A stretch of DNA of 64,000 nucleotides from the NCBI GenBank assembly GCA_020746835.1, contig JAGPNK010000011.1, positions 1,116,001 to 1,180,000 on the forward strand, given 5' to 3'. Position 1 is the stretch's first letter. Every line of letters starts with the position of its first letter. Made by a program: the position numbers and the translations under genes. Shown here piece after piece: positions 6,433-50,209 of the stretch. The notes beneath the pieces are model-generated. The model did no database searches. It was not told the origin of the DNA and saw nothing but the letters and a program-made list of their open reading frames with translations. The DNA is from Stachybotrys elegans (Eukaryota; Ascomycota; Sordariomycetes; Hypocreales; Stachybotryaceae).

Positions 6433-8002
6433 TTACCACATCTGAGGGGATGTTTTCCCACCCGCTCTCACGTCAGAACGAAATCGTACTTCGATGCAGA
6501 ACATGTCAAAACTTTGGACCTTCCCGGGCCGTATAACTACAGAAACAGACAGGTTCGAACGATCAAATGAGACAATACGCTCATGGACGACGTCTTTTGG
6601 TCGTTTGAACTGCTCGATAATCGCTTTCACATCTTGTGGGGGGGTAAGTGCCACAGCATAAAAGAACTTGTACAGCGGCGTCCCTGCGATGGGAGCGGCC
6701 CACAGCAATATCAGTATTCTGTTTGTCGTCCATGACACCTTGAGCTCCACGGCAGCCTTGTCCTGTATCCAATGACCCAATTCGAGCAGATGAAGTTTCG
6801 AAGAGTATGTGACTGTAGGCGGGTATACGCCACCAACCTGAACATCTTCAGGCAGGTGACTGATGTAAAAGGCATGCTGACGCTCCAGCTGGGGTGCTCG
6901 TGGTGGCTCAGTCTCATGTGCAGATTTGCTCACGTAAATCGTCTTTTGAGCGCCGCGTGATGACTGTATGAACAGACTGTCAGGATTTGACCTAAGGAAC
7001 CGGTCCCCCTTCACAAACGAGTTTGATGCCAATTGTACTCTTCAAATTGTCTACTCTTAGGCAGTCGAGACCAATAAGAGCCATCTCCCTATCTCCTTCA
7101 CTGAAGTAGTTGATGGTAGATGTCAGAGGTACACCACGGCTGGTAACCGCCATGGGTATCTGGCTGACATTTATATGTCGAAACGGCACGATATCACCAC
7201 AGTTGGCGAATTCGTCCGGTGATGAGGCAAGAATGCCGCGAAAGGGAACTGCTTTTGCCGAATCGGGAGTGGCGCGCCATGCGAATAGAGTCTGGTCCTC
7301 GGAGTCTTTGAGAATCTCCTCTTGAAGCCGAATGAAGGCCTTGGAGCCTTCGCCGTAGAGCATGGGCATGTTGACATTGAAGATTCCCATGAGACAATAA
7401 GCGATGTCTTCCTTGCGTCGAGTCTTCCGATGCGCTGCCCAGGACATGCGCTTCGCTACACTAACCTTGCTCAACGGCCCTCCCTGTAGTATATGTTTGT
7501 CGATCTTAGTAATGCGCTCAAGCTGATCCTGGAGGTCTTTCTTGTCTCCAATCCTATGCCATCCCTCTCCATAGAAGACGATATTGCGGGGGGCGATCAG
7601 CTCCTGGAGCGTCCAACCTCGGGTGAACCAGGAACTCTTGGGAAGCGTTGACTCGGCGGACCAGGGGTCGTCATCCTCCGGAACATCAGGGAGATACGCA
7701 TAGCACCGCTCTGATTCCCGATACCACGTGAACATTGAGTTGATGGCCTCACTCAGCTCAGCACTACTGCTTTTGTCAATACAGCAGGTGTCGACCCAAG
7801 CATAGTCCAGGCCATCCTTTTGGGCTTGTTTGCAAGTCATGGTTATCTTCTCAAAGCCTGCACGAGTGGTCCGGCTTGCTGGGTCTTGGAATTGCTGGAG
7901 AGAAACCTCTTCTTCTCCCCAGGTATGCGACAGGATGGCGTAGGGCGGAGGTTGCCCAGAAAATTCCTCCAACTCAAGAGTGTCGGTCTTGATCAATCGC
8001 AT
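6433..8002 (-). CDS. HET-domain protein (heterokaryon incompatibility) with a frame break
   Basis: Fungal HET proteins trigger vegetative incompatibility or programmed cell death. The ATG at 8002 opens MRLIKTDTLELEEF, and the HET domain follows at once: YAILSHTWGEEEVSL, then DYAWVDTCCIDKSSSAEL, then WFTRGWTLQELIAPRNIVFY, the three classical HET blocks, ending near residue 180. The uninterrupted frame stops at 6992 (336 codons). A second frame, open from about 7032 to 6433, continues with typical HET-protein C-terminal sequence (VRFRSDVRAGGKTSP at the end). The two frames meet at a run of five C on the plus strand (7005-7009), and no acceptable intron spans the junction. Either one base was inserted in the homopolymer, truly or by sequencing error, or the shorter 336-residue form is real. 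The HET domain is intact in both cases. Confidence 0.82.
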
Positions 8003-9006
8003 CTTGTCAGGCCAACAAGTGTTTCAAAGAGAGATACTGAAGCAGGGCCACTCTCCCGGAAGACAAACCAACATTGAATCGTAGTGTTGGACCGTTGAGA
8101 TGTTGATGAGGGGTACAAACAAGGCAGCCAATTACCATTGATTATACGTTGCATTGAAAGACGAGGCCACGCCTATTTTTGGGCCTAGATATACTACATA
8201 TCAGGCAGCAACTGTGCTTTTATTGGTTCATCGATAGTAACCGAGAACCACTCACAGCATAAGAGGTGGTAATGCTGCAAAGCTGAGCTGGGTCAGCCTT
8301 CCTCGGCTTCACAGAATCCCTCGAATCATTACAACCCAACTCACCGTACCATTCTTTCAGAAATCGACCCTCCATAAATGACCATGGAAAGCTCAACATA
8401 TCCGTGACGGGTATTTTCTACAATCATTTGTCACCATTGTGGCTCGAGGCTGCTCTCTCCACCAGTATAGCTTCCACAATTTCTCCGTACTGGGGTCTCT
8501 ACAAGCCCGGCAACGAGCAGGAATGGGAGGAGGATTTCCCCGACTCTGCCGAATCAAGGTCTGGATGAAACACTGCCTGCATTCTACCCACAAGGATCCT
8601 CCAGAAATGAAGGTCATCATGATCGATCCACTTGCAATCAGACTGTCCGCGCCTGCTTGCTCACATTTGATGCCAGCGGCATTGGAGAGTTGTGGAGTGT
8701 CAGCTGGCGCTTCTTGATAGGTATACGTCATTTGCTGCTCCCCCATGTCTTAGACGCATCCCGCGGTGTTGGTGACAAGGTTTACTCGGAAGATTTCCGC
8801 CTTTTCTATGTGTAGGTTGGGCGTTTACTGAGTTGTCTCCTGCCTGAATGGATTGATTGTCAATATGCCCCTTGTCAGACGGCGGGATCTTCGCCAATCA
8901 TTGATAGTACATTGTTGGTGCATATAAGACAACAGCCCCTTTCCTCTCAATGAAAGACACTTGAAGTCACGGTAGCTTCACCCACCGGCAATATCTCAAA
9001 GCAAAG
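8003..9006. other. Intergenic, divergent promoters of HET and GH5 genes
   Basis: About 1 kb between divergent genes. A TATA-like CATATAAG lies at 8931-8938, about 70 bases before the GH5 start codon. Short open frames on both strands around 8400-8750 show no recognisable protein and overlap each other. Confidence 0.5.
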
Positions 9007-16555: not shown

Positions 16556-16849
16556 ACAGCAAGCATCTAGAACCAGCGGGCCATTTCTATGTTAGAATAG
16601 AGTGACGGAAGCACTAGACATGAAAGACGATGGAATTCCCTGATTTCCACTCCCGCATCATCGCGATGAAGAAGAAGCAGGGGAATAAAGAAATGATGTA
16701 CTTATGATATGCGCCACAAAGCAGCACGCGGAGCGTTTCCTACGGCTGCGGCGGCCTGAAGGAGCCAAGATCTGCGCGGCCTGTGGTTTATCTGGAGCTA
16801 TGGTCGGCTCTCACTCCCTTTGCGTGGTCGAAAATGGGCAAAAGTGGGA
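16556..16849. other. Short spacer, distal promoter of the small membrane protein
   Basis: No coding region is recognised between the thioesterase stop and the CRE-like sites described next. Confidence 0.4.
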
Positions 16850-16980: not shown

Positions 16981-17091
16981 CACAGGATCATCTCCACAAG
17001 TTAATCTCTTCTTGTCCACATTTCCATCTAGAACATCAGATATACCAAGCATTCACCAGCCACAACGACTCCATCTAACAAACCATCTAAA

Positions 17092-18976: not shown

Positions 18977-21900
18977 TTACCGCGATTCTGGCGTCTGTCT
19001 GAACCCCAACCTTTCGCTGTGCTCCACCAGAAGCCTCGAAATATTTCTCGAATACTTATTTTTAAGGGCCTTCTGGAGATCCTCTGACTTGATCTTGGCA
19101 CCTGCTGCCAGCAGTCGATGCACAATTACAAAGTCACCCGTCTGACAGGCCCAATGAAGCACTGTTTCCATTCCAGTGTCCCCTGAAGCCTTCGCATTGA
19201 CATCTGCTCCTGCCTTGATCAAAAGGTCTACGATATTCGTGTGTCGGCCTATACATGCCAGGTGAAGCGCAGTTCGGTTCCACGATAACCTGTCTCGGCC
19301 GGGATGTCGGCCGGGATTTGCCCCTGCCTTGATCAAGAGCTCAGCAATTGGGTGGAAGCCCTCTTGGCATACAAGTTCAAGCGCTGTCTGTAGATTATCT
19401 GGATCCATGATGTTCGGACCAACTCCTGCGTTGAGCAGCACACTGGCAGCATCCAATAGGTTTCGTTCGCACGCTGACATTAGAATTCTTTCTAGCGCGC
19501 GGTTGTCCGCCCCCGCCTTCATCAGCAGCTGCGTGGTTGACAGGTAGTCTTCGCTGTGAACCTCTGCCAGCATATCTCGGCTGACCTCGACTCCTGACCC
19601 AAGCAACCACTGGACAACAGCCAAGTGGTGATGCCGGCATGCTGTAACCAGCAGATGCGGGGGGAATTGCCAGATTGCCGGCAAGGCGAATTCCTTCACT
19701 TGCTGTAAGATTCCAGGATGGCCATACGTACATGCTATCTCGCATGCGCCGTTCAGATAAGAAGCAAGGCGTTTTTCTTGCAAAAGCACCTTGACCACCT
19801 CGCGGTTGCCCGTCTTTGAGACATACAGCAGGAACTCACCAAGCTTTTCTAGAGGTGCGGTCCCCCGGGTACTAATGAGGTCCAGGAAAGCATAGTGATG
19901 CGCTTCGAGAGCCCACCGGAGGAGGCCTACACCGTCAAGAAACAGCTCAGCCGTATCTAGGTTGTCCCAGGGGACGTGTGCCAGAGAGTGGCCGTTCGTT
20001 ATGATGCCCTCCCATATCACCCATGTCTTGGATACGCCTCGAGCGAGGGACTTGGTATGCTCTAGCCAATTCTCAGCCGCATACTCGAGGAAAGGGTATT
20101 CGTGTCCCAGTTTGTTCGGCGAATCCCGATTGTCAGCTCTTTCAAAGCTGGCCATTGGCACGTCGACGTCGACGCAAGTCTCGGGCTTCGGGTCCATCAT
20201 ATTATTTCTTATGAATTTCACCAGTGATTTCCCCAATGGATTTAATCCACCCAAGGCCCCTTCAGCGATCGCTACGGGATTCGGCAAACGCATCCGTGGA
20301 CCGCGCCGAGCAAGACTCGTCACGAAGGCGTTCAAGTGCAGATACGTGACGCAAATCTCTCCAGCATGGTGATCGGCGTCTCTTTGGTCGAAATGGAACT
20401 GGGCAAGGCTAGCCCTAGCCTTGTTGCTGATGATGAAGTCGTATATGCTGGCATGTGCAAACTGAGCAGTTTTGAGTTCTTCGTTCACCTGAACCAAGTT
20501 CTCGCACCGGGTGGCAATATGCTCGACGCCATTGATCCTTCCTCCTAGATTCAATTCGGGGTTTCCAACAATCACAGATCCGACTTCGCAAAGTTGATCC
20601 AAGCGAAGCGGCCGTTTAGCAACGGCGATCCAGGGGAAGACTCGCTGGGCAAACGCAGCGTGTTTCCGGGCCACAATTCTAGACAACGCACGATTGTACG
20701 TATCCTCTAGATCTCTTGGAAGGTCTTTGAGACACGCGCGTATATCGTCATCGCTGCACTGCGCGCAGACCTCGTCGATGAGATACGTGACCCATATGAT
20801 CCTATCCGAAGTCAGGGCCTGCTCCTATGAATAACTTAGATCTTGCACTTACATTCCGTCAGCATGTTTGCTCAAGATTCCCTGAACGTGGTCGAGTAGG
20901 GATGGATCTCCAAGGGACAACTGCCCGCTCTGGACTCGCCTGAATAGCTCGCTCTTGATGATTATATCAACATCATTGCCGGCTTTAGCATTTCCCATAG
21001 ATATGCGCTGCAAGTTCGGGAAATAGCGCCTCAACTCTTGAGACAGACTTTCTCGCCCGGCCACGAAGATCTTCAGACATGGGTACAACTCGATTATAGA
21101 ATTCAGTGCAGCCCAAATCTCAGACCTATCCGTCTGGTCACATTCGTCGACTCCGTCAAGGATCATGTAAAGCGAGCGAAAAAGCTTGGCTTGTTCTTGA
21201 AGAAGAGCGCGACATTCTTCCAAGAAAGGACAGCCGTCTTTCCTTAATCTTTCAAGACGAAGGACGATGTCGTGTGTGAGACTGTTTGGATCAAGTATTT
21301 GTTTGAGAAGCGATCTCAATATGTTTTCGGCTTTCTGGGAGGCTGGCTCGTCCTGACGAACAAATAGATATACTAATCGCTCGCGCTCATCAATCTCATC
21401 AAGGAGATGAGTGATGACATTGGCGCTTCCGGCAGAGGGTCAGTAGCCATCTTCCCTTCAGATAATGTCGACATACGAACCTGAGGACCGTCTTGCCTGC
21501 TCCGACTAAAAATTGTTAGCTGAGTAGAGGTGAAAGAACACCGAGATCATACTTTTACCCGAGCACCAAAGAACTGACGACTGCTTTGACTCACGCCAAC
21601 CAACAAATTCTGCAGTAGAGAATATCCACTCTGCCGTCTCGGGATGTCTCTTCTTGCAGGCTTCATTCAAAGGACTACGATAGTCGTGCGTGGATAATCT
21701 GTCCAGGAGTTGTTGTATGCGTTCCTCTAATACTAATGAGCTATCGGTAAGCCATGATTATCGAAGAAAACCTACTCGTGTGGCGACGTTCTCGTCTGAG
21801 CTCCAGCTCCTTGATGGTATCGAGGCTGTCTGTAGCGGTAGGCAAGATTCTTTCTAGCTTCTTCCGCATCTTCCATGCCGATGTCCTTTCCTTCTGTTGA

Positions 21901-22728: not shown

Positions 22729-23061
22729 TCTGCTACTGGTAAGGCAACAGGAATGCGACGAGGGGAGAATAGGGAGTGGGAAATTTGACACAGCCTCGTC
22801 GGTTATTTATGGCACCCGGGACCTCAGCCGCACCCTCACGTTTTTCTGATCCCAGTGAACGTTAATTGGCCAAGTTTATACCTGTAGGACCAGAAAAATG
22901 CGAGTGCACCCGCTATTTGTCAGAGCACTCATTTGGGCTGATATTCTTCCCTACACCTGCGTTCCTTTACTGCTTGTTGCTAAGCACTCATCATTTATTT
23001 TCTCATTGAGTCTTGCTGGCAATTCGCCGCCCGTGAAAGGCCTTCCGCAGTGAATTTCGCG
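22729..23061. promoter_or_regulatory. Bidirectional promoter of NLR and nucleotidyltransferase gene
   Basis: 333 bases separate the divergent starts of the DUF7708-NACHT-ankyrin gene and the MNT-type gene. The arrangement makes shared control possible. No specific factor site stands out. Confidence 0.4.
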
Positions 23062-23695
23062 ATGACGAGACCAAGAGTGGCTGGTGTCTGGTTAGGCTTC
23101 GCCAAGAGCAAGACATTACGTTTCTCACCACACTACATCCACCACATCACCCCGGGGAAGCAGCGGCTCACAATTTATACGACTGTAAAGCCTGCGTCTT
23201 CAATTCAAGAAGTGGAAGATTGCTGTCGTTGTTTCTTCAGCAGGGACGAGACACGGGCAGTTGTCGCTTGGGTTGGCCTCTTCGGTTCCTTTGCGCGCAA
23301 CAAGCAGACACCGAGCAGCGACGTTGACCTGCTTGTAGGGTTCCGGAAAGATGCGTCCGAAGATGAACTTTATTATCTTGGCGACTTGACGCAAGAGCTG
23401 AAACATGTCATGCAGAGGGATGTCGATGTAATACATATGCGATACCTACAAACCCTACTCCAAAGAAGAGGATGCGCAAGGGATGAACGGCTATTTCGAG
23501 CCACTTTACTATTGGACGTTACCAATACCCAAGAAGATCAAGCAATATCGGGCATTAGGGATCGATGGACTGACAGCAGAGGACCGGTCACTTCTTTGGC
23601 ATCTCCTGACACAAATTTTGCCGGACCGCGCCGAGTCATTGAGAAAGATTTACATTCCAATCCTAGAAGAAGAAATGAAGGGAATCGACCGATAG
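23062..23695 (+). pseudogene. MNT-type nucleotidyltransferase, internally decayed
   Basis: Minimal nucleotidyltransferase fold (polymerase-beta superfamily), the type paired with HEPN partners in prokaryotic toxin-antitoxin modules. From the ATG at 23062 the frame carries VAWVGLFGSFARNKQTPSSD followed by VDLLVG, giving the GS-x-x-DxD motif with both metal-binding Asp, and then a matching second half up to about 23460 (DVDVIHMRYLQTLLQ). The frame then loses similarity and ends at 23703. The C-terminal helical module seen in the paralogue at 37.6 kb reappears in another frame at ~23483-23695 (GLTAEDRSLLWHLLTQ, LRKIYIPILEEEM). The middle part present in the paralogue is missing, so an internal deletion of perhaps 200-300 bases plus a frame change fits. 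A shortened functional 213-residue protein cannot be excluded. Confidence 0.68.
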
Positions 23696-23703
23696 CCGGG
23701 TGA

Positions 23704-34659: not shown

Positions 34660-34966
34660 ATGGCCAGCTTTAAGCAAACTGCCGTTGCTATTCTTTTGGT
34701 AGTAAATGTCATGGCAAAGCCCATTACTTCGGGTATGTATTCACATCATGACTTATTTCCCAGTATATTAGGCACTGGCTGACCAATTTATTCAAGGATT
34801 CGGAGAAGCAAGTGTCCAAATCTTGGATCGAGAGCCTCACTCCGATATCAACATGAATCTTGGAGAAAAGGAGAGACGCGATGGGTCAACTGGGGCTGAC
34901 CCTCACTTTTCGTTCAGGGGGAGACGTGACGGGTCAACCGAGTCTGATCCTGATTTTTCATTCTAG
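34660..34966 (+). CDS. Candidate RiPP precursor peptide (dikaritin/UstA-like) with two core repeats
   Basis: Two exons, 34660-34732 and 34797-34966, encode 80 residues; the GTATGT donor and TTCAAG acceptor with a CTGAC branch join in frame. Residues 1-21 are a signal peptide (MASFKQTAVAILLVVNVMAK). A leader follows to residue ~50. Then comes Arg51-Arg52, a 12-residue segment DGSTGADPHFSF (53-64), RGRR (65-68), a second DGSTESDPDFSF (69-80) and the stop. Secretory leader, dibasic kexin-type sites and near-identical short repeats are the known pattern of fungal dikaritin precursors (ustiloxin, phomopsin, asperipin). The convergent neighbour is a UstYa/DUF3328 gene, the hallmark modifying oxidase of that class. 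There is no tyrosine in the repeats; Phe, His and Ser are the likely modified residues, if any. A decayed third repeat follows the stop codon. It could alternatively be a pheromone- or effector-like secreted peptide. Confidence 0.72.
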
Positions 34967-34993
34967 TGAAGACGCAATAGGTCAACTAGTTTC
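34880..34993 (+). repeat. Tandem core-peptide repeats, third copy decayed past the stop
   Basis: Repeat unit ~48 bases including the basic spacer. Core 1 is at 34880-34915 and core 2 at 34928-34963. The TAG (34964-34966) and following bases to ~34993 align with the spacer and start of another unit, with changes at the spacer codons and G-to-A changes at the Asp-Gly codons. Confidence 0.65.
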
Positions 34994-35573
34994 GAAAATT
35001 GATAGTTTATGACAGCAGCCCTGGTTTGGGGAAGTTTCGCATATTCACAACATACACGAAACCGAATACGGGTATCTCCCATTTCCAAGGATAGTGAAAT
35101 GGTTTACTTGAAAAACCTACCATGCAACGTTATGGGCAGGAGCATCGGTCTTTCTCACAGCTGCGTCTTAGAATTAATGGGTGGTGCTGCTCTCCGACAG
35201 CTCCATGGTACAGCTTGGGTGTCAGACAGCTCTCCCCACATGTCTTGGCTTTCAATATTGCCGTCATCATGCTGTCGTAGATAACAGCAGCCTAGCGGGC
35301 TAACCGGTAGAACTGCAGGGTATTATGAGGTATGGTTGTGTTCTTTTGGGTATGTGCTCCGCCTGCACGTCAATAGCCGTGCTGATTCGGAAAGACTACC
35401 TGGAAGAGATTAAGCAAGGAAGTTGTCGCATATCACACATTGCCCACACCAAATGCTACATGGTTTTGCAACCCATTATTCTTAGCTAGAGTAAAGGTTG
35501 GCATTTGGTCCGTCTGGGTAATCCATGTCTGTGGCAAGTTTGATCGTGTTCCAGACTCAATGACTTCAGCTTT
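34967..35573. other. Convergent spacer between precursor and UstYa gene
   Basis: About 0.6 kb. It starts with the fossil core repeat. A plus-strand open frame 35009-35284 resembles no known protein and has no signal peptide or repeats. No further RiPP gene is seen. Confidence 0.5.
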
Positions 35574-36585
35574 CTATACCGTTACTGAGCTATCCTCCTG
35601 ATAGACTAATGACGATAGGAATATCTCCTTGTTCTCAAAATCCAGCGACCTGTCATCCAACCATTGTTGAACCAGGCTCCAGTCAGTGCATCTCCGGTGT
35701 CCGTGTCGGTTGCCTTTGATTTCATCAGGGGACTTCCAAAAGTATGTGTTGACCGTCACGTCGGCATTGCACATGATTCCTTGGCGCAGAACCTCGAGAC
35801 AATGGTCTGCACGGGGTTAATGGTGGAATAGATCAGCAGATCCAGACATGTTTCTACTTACTCCAGTGACCGGGAGAAAACGCATCCATATCTTGGGGCT
35901 TTGCGTAATACTCTTGATATTGTGATTGATATATTCGTTTCTTTGGTCGCGTGAGCTTGTACGCCTCTCATACCCAGAAGAGGATCTTTACCACACAGTG
36001 AAGCATGTGGATAGACTCGAGATATCCAATGTAGCCGCTTCCATCCCGTATTTCGATGGACGATTTGTTCATTCGATTCATTTCGTCATTCGAAATTTTG
36101 ATATTTGATGCTAGGAGACCTGTCAGTCATCGTTCTGGTTGGGCCGTAGGAAGGAGCCTACATCTCAGGAGATCTGACCAAGCCTGATCAAGCTCCTTGC
36201 TAGGTTCACCTACAAAAGGACTCGGGCCTGTCTCGAAATCCTGGACCACGTAGCGCAGAGCAGTTCTCGCCGGGGCTTGAATAACGTTACTAAAATGGCC
36301 TTAAAGGCTATATCATGGTTCGGGCCGTGGCTTACAGAACGCTGCTTCATTCACTTCATCACCGGGGCAAACAGTCTCAACCGGATTTGAAGAAGTGATA
36401 TTCCAAAGGAACAGCACAAGGTTCAAGCAAACAAAAACCGAATGGAACAGATATGGTGCGTAGAAGTTTCTGAAGGATCTGGTAGCTGGGCGATGCTCTT
36501 CTCCGCTGCAATCGCAATTGACAGGGGAACCGCATTCATCGGTGCCTAGAAAGTGCTTCGTCTCTGGGATTGATAGTGAAGCCAT
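35574..36585 (-). CDS. UstYa-family (DUF3328) RiPP-modifying oxidase
   Basis: Five exons: 36585-36336, 36275-36162, 36110-35992, 35940-35862 and 35806-35574; all joins keep frame and give 264 residues. Residues ~45-63 (YLFHSVFVCLNLVLFLW) form the single membrane span typical of the family. It is followed by the conserved SPARTALRYVVQDFE (84-98), FVGEPSKELDQAWSDLL (104-120) and NDEMNRMNKSSIEIRDGSG. Both HxxHC motifs are present: HMLHC (156-160) and HWNHC (186-190), then LEVLRQGIMCNADVTVNTY and TDWSLVQQW. UstYa/UstYb proteins catalyse oxidative cyclisation of the core peptide in ustiloxin and asperipin biosynthesis, probably in the secretory pathway. The intron between HCV and KRIYQ (35991-35941, 51 bases) is inferred from family alignment. 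The gene is complete, and convergent with the precursor 607 bases away. Confidence 0.88.
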
Positions 36586-37586
36586 TGCGCGAACTAAGAA
36601 GACCAGGCAAACAAAGTACTCAGCTGTTACCGTGGGGTGAGCTCACAAATGAGTTGTGGAAGTGAAGGGGCGGACTCTCGAAGTACTCGTAACGAACCAA
36701 GCCTATGGTTGCCGGACACTATGAGTTCGCTCTAACATATGAGGTCTTTTCGCCAACTCCCTTCCCTCCTCTTTGTAATCCGGATGCTAGTCAAGGTCTC
36801 TCTTGGTTCCCAACGTGCAGGATAGTCTCTAATCCGCAATGGGCAAGTTATCCGCTGCAGTCATGTCTGATGCAACCCCATGCTGCAGGTTCATGAGCAT
36901 CCCCTCAAAGTAAGCCGGCATTCGGCCTTGACCTGCGACCTTTCCAAGTACAGGAATTGGTTCCCCCAGTTTCCCTCTCCCAGTGTGTGATGGAGCTTTT
37001 CTTTGCCAGTCCCAGCAAGAAGACACCCACAGCGTGTGCAAGCAGTGCAACCGTATGAGTTTGCCCTGCAAAGGTCTAGGGCAAGCATTGCCATCAACAT
37101 GTCGTACGCTGATACAAACAGCATCGCCACGGCCACCGATCCAGCATATCTTGACCGTGTACATGGTCTTGCAGTAAAGGGGGCAAAAAAAATAGATCTT
37201 CAAGCAAAAAACATACAACAGCCGGTGTTCGCTGGTCGTCACCGACCCAACTACTAATCTGCCCCTTACCAGTTTGACTAGGGGGGAGCGGACGGGACCC
37301 CGTATTTTCTGGTAGGTATGGTCGTATGTGAAGGAAGAAAGCCTAACAATATCTTAAGTATGGGATAGATATCTTACCTAGGCAGGAGTTGGTGAACTGA
37401 TGAAATTTTGCGCGAGTCGCACCTCAGGCTGCCATTTTCAACCACATGCCATGAGTTTACAGCACACAGGAAGTTCTCTGAATGCGTTTCTGTCTCCGGT
37501 ACAGTCGCCAGGCGCTTTTGCCATCGGCTGAACTCTCACGCCATCTTCATTCCAGCTCCAGGCCAAGGCACCCCATCCTATCATCT
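36586..37586. other. Intergenic, upstream of UstYa and MNT genes
   Basis: 1 kb between divergent genes. Open frames on both strands around 36830-37257 show no recognised domain. In-frame ATG codons at 37482 could extend the nucleotidyltransferase N-terminus by 35 residues. Confidence 0.45.
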
Positions 37587-38495
37587 ATGTCCAGTTCCAC
37601 CCCCGTCAGCACGGTCAACGAGATCAAGGAGCGCACCCAGCATGTGTTTCGTCTTTCCGAGTTTCAGCATATTGCGTGGGTGGGGGTGTTTGGATCCTTT
37701 TCTCGCGGCAAGCAGAATCCTGAGAGTGATGTCGACCTGCTTGTTGGGCTAAAGGAGGGCACCAGCTCAAACGACTTTTGGTATATTCCAGCAAGTCTAC
37801 AAGAAAAGTTGCAAGAGTCTTTACGGCGTGAAGTCGATCTCCTGTACTTGCATCACGGGCAGGTTCTTAGCTTCATCAAGGCTCAAGCTCTTGTGGCTGC
37901 CCAGACAATATATGATGCAGACATGGCATGGGTATCAGCTCAGCAGTCCCAGTCTAAGACAATACTTGTTGATGCCTACGTCAGGTTCACAGAGGCTCTT
38001 CGGTTAGAGAAGCAGGTATCAGAAATGCTGGATACAGCGCATAAACAGGCAGGTTTATTTTATCCTAATCTAACACTACTCCTGCATTAGAGTGTCTAGC
38101 TAACACTAAAGAGCTCTGATGCCTATATCTAGACCTACCTTGAGTGCCCTTTTATGGACAGTTTGATCCCGGTTGTTCAGGATATTATTCGTAACTTGCA
38201 CTCAGAAAATGTAGATGGCAAAGGGATTGACGAATATGCTGGCTGCTACAGCTGGGAAACACCCACTACTGAGCTTTTTGCGCGATTTCAATCGAGCGGT
38301 GTTCTAGTAGCTGAGGATAGCGAATGGCTGTGGAAGCTGTTAAAGGAAGACATACCGCGCGAGATGAGATATCTCAAGGTTATTTACATACCTATGATAG
38401 AAGATGCACTCGAAACCGCTGGGATTAGCATAGGAACCGGCATTTCAGGAGAGTCTACACAGGACGCGACGGTCAGCATGTTAATGCATTACTAA
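37587..38495 (+). CDS. MNT-type nucleotidyltransferase with C-terminal helical (HepT-like?) region
   Basis: Paralogue of the decayed gene at 23.1 kb. From the ATG of MSSSTPVSTVNEIKE, the polymerase-beta-type nucleotidyltransferase domain shows HIAWVGVFGSFSRGKQNPES followed by DVDLLVG, with GSFxRG and both metal Asp, and REVDLLYLHHGQVL as the third carboxylate strand. A helical segment follows (DAYVRFTEALRLEKQ) up to HKQ. A likely intron (about 38049-38132, unusual GC-AG borders) joins to TYLECPFMDSLIPVVQDI and the C-terminal helices (EDSEWLWKLLKEDIPREM, LKVIYIPMIEDAL). The arrangement recalls prokaryotic MNT-HepT toxin-antitoxin pairs fused into one chain, but the HEPN RNxxxH catalytic motif is not visible. 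If the intron is not spliced, the protein stops at 38090. Function in fungi is unknown to me. A longer start at 37482 would add 35 residues. Confidence 0.72.
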
Positions 38496-48624: not shown

Positions 48625-50209
48625 ATGGCCCTGATCAGCTTCCTCGTCTCGCCGTGGGCCGTCCTCGCCGCCCTCGGGCTCCTGGGCTCATCCTACGTCT
48701 ACGCCCACCTCGTCACGCACCGGCACCTGCGCGGCCTCCCCGCGCCCTTCCCCGCCCAGTTCACCAGCCTGTGGCTCTTCTCCGTCTGCCGCCGCGGCCA
48801 GCGCTTCGCCATTGTCCACGACGTCCACGTCCGCCTCGGCAAGGTCGTCCGCCTGCAGCCCAACCACGTCAGCATCGCCGACGACTCGGCCATCCAGGAA
48901 ATCTACGGCCACGGCAATGGCTTCCTCAAGGCGTAAGAACCCAACAACCCCCCCTCGACTCCTGGCCGGTTGAGCTGATGCTGTGAGTAGTGACTTCTAC
49001 GACGCCTTCGTCTCCATCCGCCGCGGCCTCTTCAACACTCGCGACCGCGCCGAGCACACGCGCAAGCGCAAGCTCGTCTCGCACACCTTTGCCGCCCGCT
49101 CCATCACCCAGTTCGAGCCCTTCATCCACCACAACCTCGAGCTCTTTGTCCAGCGCCTCGACGAGCTGATCCGCGAGAGCGCCACCGGCACCGCCGCCCG
49201 CCTCGACTGCCTCCCCTGGTTCAACTTCCTCGCCTTCGACATCATCGGCGACCTCGCTTTCGGCGCCCCCTTTGGCATGCTGCGCAACGCCGCCGACATC
49301 GCCGAGGTCCGCGCCTCCCCCGACAGCCCTCCCATCTACGCCTCCGCCATCGAGATCCTCAACCGCCGCGGCGACGTCAGCGCCACCCTCGGCATCATGC
49401 CCTGGCTCAAGCCCTACGCCCGCTACCTCCCGGACCCCTTCTTCTCCCGCGGCCTCCACGCCGTCCAGAATCTCGCCGGCATCGCCATCGCCCGCGTCAA
49501 GAGCCGGCTGGAGAACCCCCCGCCCGAGGAGCGCAAGGACCTCCTCGCCCGCCTCATGGAGGGCAGGGACGAAAAGGGCGACCCCCTCGGCCAGGAGGAG
49601 TTGACGGCCGAGGCCCTGACGCAGCTCATCGCCGGCAGCGACACCACCTCCAACTCCTCCTGCGCCCTGCTCTACCACGCCGTCCGCACCCCAGGGGTCA
49701 TGGCCAAGCTCCAGGCCGAGCTCGACGCCGCCATCCCCGCCGACGTCGCCATCCCCAGCTACGCCCACGTCCGCGACCTCCCCTACCTCGCCAACGTCAT
49801 CAACGAGGCCCTCCGCCACCACAGCACCTCGGGCATCGGCCTCCCGCGCCAGATCCCCGCTGACTCCCCAGGCATCACCATCCTCGGCCGCTACTACCCG
49901 CCGGGCACGGTGCTGAGCGTGCCGACGTACACGATCCACCACGACAAGGACATTTGGGGTCCCGACGCCGACGAGTTCCGCCCGGAACGCTGGGAGAACG
50001 CTACCCCTAGGCAGAAGAATGCGTTCCTGCCCTTCAGCTATGGTCCTCGTGCCTGTGTGGGGAGAAACGTGGCCGAAATGGAGATGAAGCTCATTGCAGC
50101 TACGTGGGCAAGGCGGTACTCGGTGGAATTACTACAACAGGTCATGGAGACGAGGGAGGGCTTCCTACGCAAGCCCCTGGGCCTGGAAATCAGTCTTTCG
50201 ATGAGGTGA
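48625..50209 (+). CDS. bphA: Benzoate 4-monooxygenase cytochrome P450 (CYP53)
   Basis: Exons 48625-48932 and 48991-50209 give 508 residues. CYP53 hydroxylates benzoate at the para position, the entry to the 4-hydroxybenzoate/protocatechuate branch of aromatic catabolism and a detoxification step for plant benzoates. The N-terminal ER anchor (MALISFLVSPWAVLAALGLL) is followed by a Thr-His-Arg-His stop. Diagnostic CYP53 text is RIQPNHVS-like (VRLQPNHVSIADD), YGHGNGFLK, then FVSIRRGLFNTRDRAEHTRK. The I-helix is LTQLIAGSDTTSNSSCALLY, the K-helix ExxR is in NEALR, and the heme loop is FSYGPRACVGRN with the Cys ligand. It needs a NADPH-P450 reductase. Codons are strongly GC-rich at the third position, typical of a well-expressed gene. 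The intron acceptor GTGAGTAG restores KADFYDAF. Confidence 0.93.

Follow-up and report, generated by a model that had tools for sequence, protein, structure and literature searches.

Dikaritins in the broad sense of Ding 2016, as told in PMC10512285, are products of KEPs, precursors with repeats between Kex2 sites, that are cyclized by UstYa homologues. The original five-gene definition, as given in PMC12048977, named a tyrosinase, a methyltransferase, several DUF3328 genes and a transporter or peptidase; a later one goes by the DUF3328 protein. Ustiloxin and phomopsin share the UstYa family and a Kex2 repeat precursor with the locus described here, but they come with two and five DUF3328 proteins, respectively, a tyrosinase and a tyrosine cross-link, none of which applies to this locus (PMC7329392, PMC9233826). 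Closer in gene content is the AprY pathway to asperipin-2a in Aspergillus flavus, described with a Kex2-site repeat precursor and one DUF3328 protein (PMC7329392); a single UstYa, which the original prediction for this locus took as the sign of a minimal pathway, therefore has a precedent. AprY is reported to be copper- and dioxygen-dependent (PMC12435403). Asperipin carries two links from internal tyrosines (PMC9233826), whereas the core at our locus lacks tyrosine and has a phenylalanine end. The latter feature recalls victorin from Cochliobolus victoriae, the multi-core precursor of which is likely cut by Kex2 and which is closed between the side chain of a C-terminal phenylalanine and a leucine, although its pathway also includes a chlorination step and cluster-encoded peptidases (PMC9233826). 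With victorin grouped among the dikaritins (PMC10512285), the term in its broad sense does not depend on a tyrosine link.

The survey of Umemura 2020 (PMC7329392) reported 7,878 KEPs, 22% of them with a DUF3328 gene within 15 genes. DUF3328 genes were enriched beside KEPs across fungi, with counts peaking at the next gene, and tyrosine was found in 65.6% of the repeats of DUF3328-linked KEPs and absent from 34.4%. Given this tyrosine-free share and the 2,560 KEPs listed without a homologue, an orphan tyrosine-free precursor beside a UstYa gene is of an expected kind. Both KEP surveys (Umemura 2020 and Le Marquer 2019) set a minimum of three Kex2-bounded repeats. Stachybotrys elegans parasitizes Rhizoctonia (PMC4413796); judged by title or abstract start, none of the publications listed for Stachybotrys and RiPPs dealt with Stachybotrys RiPPs.

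We analyzed a 64-kb stretch of the 43.4-Mb genome of S. elegans (G000:C3:1116001-1180000, hereafter the window). The putative precursor gene lies at 34660-34966 on the plus strand, with its ATG at 34660 and a TAG stop at 34964-34966. Two exons (34660-34732 and 34797-34966) are separated by a 64-nt intron (34733-34796, GTATGT..TTCAAG), which agrees with the public annotation; a CTGAC within it is, we assume, a branch-point-like site. The spliced product of 80 aa is letter-for-letter the annotated protein B0I35DRAFT_438459. It consists of a hydrophobic N-terminus (hydrophobic stretch at residues 8-19), likely a signal peptide, an acidic spacer and two repeats after Arg-Arg. Among 5.8 billion proteins, no homologue at E<=10 came up in a word-based search, which requires shared 5-residue words. 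Paralogue searches in the genome recovered the locus itself and, besides it, a single weak match at C60:48856 (E 0.14); the 3,063 bases of the latter locus gave no match to our repeat criterion. The precursor matched no Pfam family at E<=0.1 and hence showed no MF_alpha-type (alpha-pheromone) domain, although a pheromone lacking a Pfam domain would escape this search.

Both repeats are in frame with a 48-nt period and read RR-DGSTGADPHFSF-RG and RR-DGSTESDPDFSF-stop. Unit 1 (34874-34921, plus strand) encodes RRDGSTGADPHFSFRG; unit 2 (34922-34969, plus strand) encodes RRDGSTESDPDFSF, followed by TAG TGA. In the first repeat FSF is followed by RG and then by the next RR, and the second repeat ends in phenylalanine. 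Neither DGSTGADPHFSF nor DGSTESDPDFSF contains a tyrosine. The two near-identical repeats claimed from the sequence alone are thus present in the annotated protein, and their 48-nt units could be located. With two full units, the gene stays below the three-repeat minimum of the KEP surveys, neither of which would have picked it up.

Tandem Repeats Finder reported 2.4 copies of the 48-nt period (34874-34986). Exactly 48 nt past the start of unit 2, and behind the stop codon, begins an untranslated remnant of a third unit (34970-34990, plus strand, 21 nt), which shares 17 of its 21 nucleotides with unit 1 and 13 with unit 2. Beyond it, 19 of the next 27 positions are unlike both units, which is chance level. 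This remnant behind the precursor stop suggests an array that used to have more units. A decaying dikaritin pair, in which a longer array was cut by a stop codon and what is left makes little or no product, would account for both the remnant and the low repeat number; a review names repeat number as the driver of the yield of ustiloxin and of the transcript level of its precursor (PMC10512285). However, the precursor frame and the splice sites are intact, as are the RR sites and the motifs of the UstYa protein, and the changes between the units lean synonymous. Across the 12 core codons the units differ at eight nucleotides (two, one and five at codon positions 1, 2 and 3), resulting in three amino-acid changes, with RR and nine of the 12 core residues kept. 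When eight changes were placed at random in a neutral simulation, a mean of 5.1 amino-acid changes was obtained, and three or fewer occurred with P about 0.06. The differences between repeats are therefore suggestive of selection on the peptide; of the purifying selection on which the original prediction had depended, the lean toward synonymous change was found and statistical significance was not. Taken together, we consider decay an unlikely explanation.

The partner gene, encoding a UstYa/DUF3328 oxidase of 264 aa, lies at 36585-35574 on the minus strand. Its five exons (36585-36336, 36275-36162, 36110-35992, 35940-35862 and 35806-35574) are separated by four GT..AG introns of 51-60 nt, and the product equals the annotated protein B0I35DRAFT_438461 letter-for-letter. 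The Pfam match to PF11807 (E 1.1e-38, 133.7 bits), like the homologue search, was obtained with a splice model that differs from the annotated protein at introns 1 and 3. That model is corrected by the annotated protein and by the homologue alignment, in which the annotated stretches FSPARTALRY and HCVKRIYQ fit the family consensus. A hydrophobic stretch (residues 46-64) falls within a membrane helix (about 39-65) predicted by a low-confidence model, and both HxxHC motifs, HMLHC (156-160) and HWNHC (186-190), are intact, as had been predicted along with the membrane anchor and the five exons. In an alignment of 29 of the 40 proteins from the homologue search, H156, H159, C160 and H186 are invariant and H189 and C190 are at least 90% conserved. 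Each motif sits on a predicted helix in an AlphaFold2 model that is itself poor (pLDDT 58.5), and a sequence search for solved structures found no match. In CctR, the HxxHC motifs are reported to form a binuclear copper site, and activity was lost when His and Cys were mutated to Ala (PMC12435403).

At E<=0.001, the homologue search recovered the annotated protein itself and 39 others, 30 of which carry an organism name. Hosts include Xylaria, Nemania, Hypoxylon, Paecilomyces, Aspergillus, Cytospora, Podospora, Viridothelium and Colletotrichum; no other Stachybotrys is among the 30. The paralogues within the S. elegans genome are less closely related, with 23-40% identity over the matched stretches. 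Because homologues occur in scattered fungi, no other Stachybotrys is named and the own paralogues are more remote, the enzyme looks like a member of a patchily spread lineage and not like a recent duplicate. Viral and prokaryotic collections yielded no relative.

The two genes are convergent, with the predicted gap of 607 bases between them, and consequently share no promoter. Pfam analysis of the window covered 42 frames, of which 40 belong to the 77 that reach 150 aa and two are shorter; genes made up of small exons could escape it. Besides the single UstYa gene of the window, families found were an APH-type kinase, nucleotidyltransferases, protein kinases, a GMC oxidoreductase and a P450, the latter at 48974-50206, 12.4 kb from the pair. 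No tyrosinase or methyltransferase was detected in the 42 frames, which agrees with the claim that neither these nor a P450 adjoin the pair. Likewise, no peptidase or full transporter was found directly beside it; the nearest sign of a transporter is an MFS frame just below the cut-off, about 5 kb off. Elsewhere in the window, two Polbeta/NTP_transf_2 nucleotidyltransferase frames (37482-38090 and 22984-23700, both plus strand) presumably resemble bacterial MNT-type enzymes, and NPHP3_N (NACHT-like), HET and ankyrin frames (1645-2511, 20849-21439, 6992-8023 and 18977-20824, all minus strand) represent fungal NLR-type or incompatibility genes.

The genome contains 28 Pfam UstYa matches, tallied exon by exon. 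We surveyed 15 UstYa regions (14 and the window), amounting to 314,000 bases with 23 merged places of UstYa fragments, some of them weak. Flanks measured roughly 8-10 kb in eight regions, five 10-kb stretches had about 3-5 kb and the C9 region had its left half only; the UstYa locus on C17 lay outside the survey. A Kex2-bounded repeat frame was present in nine of the 15 regions, the window included. The distance from frame to UstYa fragment ranged from 449 to 1861 nt, which puts all nine frames inside a 2-kb zone around such fragments. This zone makes up 28.7% of the scanned DNA, and random placement would give the observed arrangement with P 1.3e-5, a value that takes positions as independent in regions picked for their UstYa. 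At C23:464500 and C61:1737600 a second reading frame covers the same DNA, and each stretch was counted once. In order, the repeats of the nine pairs are ARHHQGGRAKGNGRGRNN; AYGRHTDDVS; DPDEILNIS..SSYDV; QYQLVVSQHGIEDG; IDVADAF; ENLLDKKIGLSTDWI; VIYPDY; ASVLPPLVDAGIE; and the window's DGST..DP.FSF; the eight besides that of the window are plain reading frames and not curated gene models. No repeat frame was found in the remaining six regions (C12:494k, C34:464k, C9, C21, C60:2.04M and C1:5.80M). A C12 frame (region position 17045) that appeared in a rescan at looser settings was unconvincing, and an array at C34:454300 (region position 16737; 134-nt, 1.9 copies) lies more than 6 kb from UstYa; neither was counted.

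The dikaritin-type pairing that had been proposed for a single locus therefore recurs across the genome. Tyrosine is absent from the repeats of five of the nine pairs (the first, fifth, sixth, eighth and ninth). The claim that the product of a core without tyrosine would belong to a new chemical group did not hold up as stated, given these five pairs, the 34.4% share in PMC7329392 and the closure of victorin via phenylalanine.

Two of the other repeats deserve mention. At G000:C23:471685-472374, a frame 1.9 kb from UstYa repeats ARHHQGGRAKGNGRGRNN between KR sites; this is a di-histidine repeat, and di-histidine is a feature noted for two abundant KEP types (PMC7329392). At G000:C45:185539-185901, a frame beside UstYa has three near-identical copies of ASVLPPLVDAG(I/T)E between KR sites, and this repeat is devoid of aromatic residues.

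Alternatively, the precursor could give rise to linear secreted peptides, acting as a signal or effector, while the UstYa protein serves another pathway. Such a division of labor would fit the 6,120 of 7,878 KEPs that lack a DUF3328 gene in their 15-gene surroundings (PMC7329392), the contrast between 39 homologues for the enzyme and none detected for the precursor, and the report that DUF3328 enzymes also modify a non-ribosomal peptide (PMC12435403). It is difficult to reconcile with nine UstYa-precursor pairs in one genome, for which coincidence is unlikely; moreover, the precursor showed no mating-factor domain, and none of the 42 frames scanned in the window had an NRPS or PKS domain. We regard linear peptides as improbable. 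That the repeat frame is a chance product or a structural secreted protein, as its orphan status and mere two units might suggest, is very improbable, as the repeat criterion found nothing in five sets of 297,063 bases each that were simulated with a first-order Markov model, against a single match, the precursor, in the 64-kb window, and the full precursor anatomy is present, with a hydrophobic start, an intron, a spacer and dibasic-bounded repeats.

We therefore favor, with reasonable though not high confidence, a small dikaritin-type RiPP locus as predicted from the genes. This reading is supported by two intact and annotated genes, the Pfam UstYa match, the conservation of the HxxHC motifs and the genome-wide pairing. 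Weighing against it are the presence of two repeats only, the orphan precursor, the convergent orientation, the six regions without a precursor, the non-significant selection signal, the lack of an adjacent peptidase or full transporter and the poor structure model. With respect to class, a PF11807 enzyme with HMLHC and HWNHC and a Kex2-repeat precursor, its secretion predicted from the N-terminus, make the locus a candidate dikaritin in the broad sense, and the later definition by DUF3328 protein includes it as well. The original five-gene set is incomplete here, with one UstYa and neither tyrosinase nor methyltransferase in the frames analyzed, and the core lacks the tyrosine of the best-known dikaritins. 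The arrangement of the pair is already known; the peptide sequence is unusual. The two-gene locus is real and, as a RiPP locus whose core is unusual, probably functional; it probably yields a small modified peptide.

We propose that the N-terminal signal would take the precursor into the secretory pathway and that Kex2 cleavage after Arg-Arg would free two peptides, DGSTGADPHFSF(RG) and DGSTESDPDFSF. By analogy with CctR, the UstYa protein would be a membrane-anchored copper oxidase that oxidizes the freed peptides, most likely at the FSF end common to both, and the outcome could be a Phe-centered cross-link, a desaturation or a hydroxylation. FSF would then be the modified part and DGST..DP a spacer, a division that differs from the 12-residue core originally envisaged. 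The core sequence of victorin is presumably unrelated to that of the window.

A second tyrosine-free Kex2-repeat precursor was observed at G000:C23:1885208-1885585, with five IDVADAF repeats and 449 nt from a UstYa fragment. This locus (C23, about 1.884-1.886 Mb) resembles the window in belonging to the same genome, in having an acidic repeat without tyrosine and an adjoining UstYa, and in the phenylalanine end of the repeat before a dibasic site. It differs in its five repeats and in having homologues in other fungi; the UstYa proteins of the two loci are 33% identical over residues 148-237. A search at E<=1 found eight homologues of the IDVADAF precursor, every one of them below 1e-7; they come from Monosporascus, Parahypoxylon, Nemania, Anthostomella, two Xylaria, Apiospora and one more source and have DVADAF-type cores mostly preceding KR. 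None of the papers searched contains the string DVADAF. This conserved tyrosine-free precursor is at least as interesting as the window pair. One may speculate, though we think it rather doubtful, that one UstYa copper oxidase alone makes a new Phe-centered cyclic scaffold from a tyrosine-free, Asp-rich Phe-Ser-Phe peptide and that, with IDVADAF, a wider acidic, Phe-terminated class with an undescribed cross-link exists.

The window pair offers a two-gene, easily tested case of UstYa acting on a core without tyrosine. The most useful yield of this work, however, is the tally of pairs in the genome together with the IDVADAF precursor and its homologues, and this wider result, namely nine or more pairings of UstYa and precursor that differ widely in their repeats, matters more than the window pair. 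Because at least nine pairs with differing repeats, five of them tyrosine-free, occur in one fungus, the chemistry of the UstYa family is likely broader than its best-known tyrosine-linked products.
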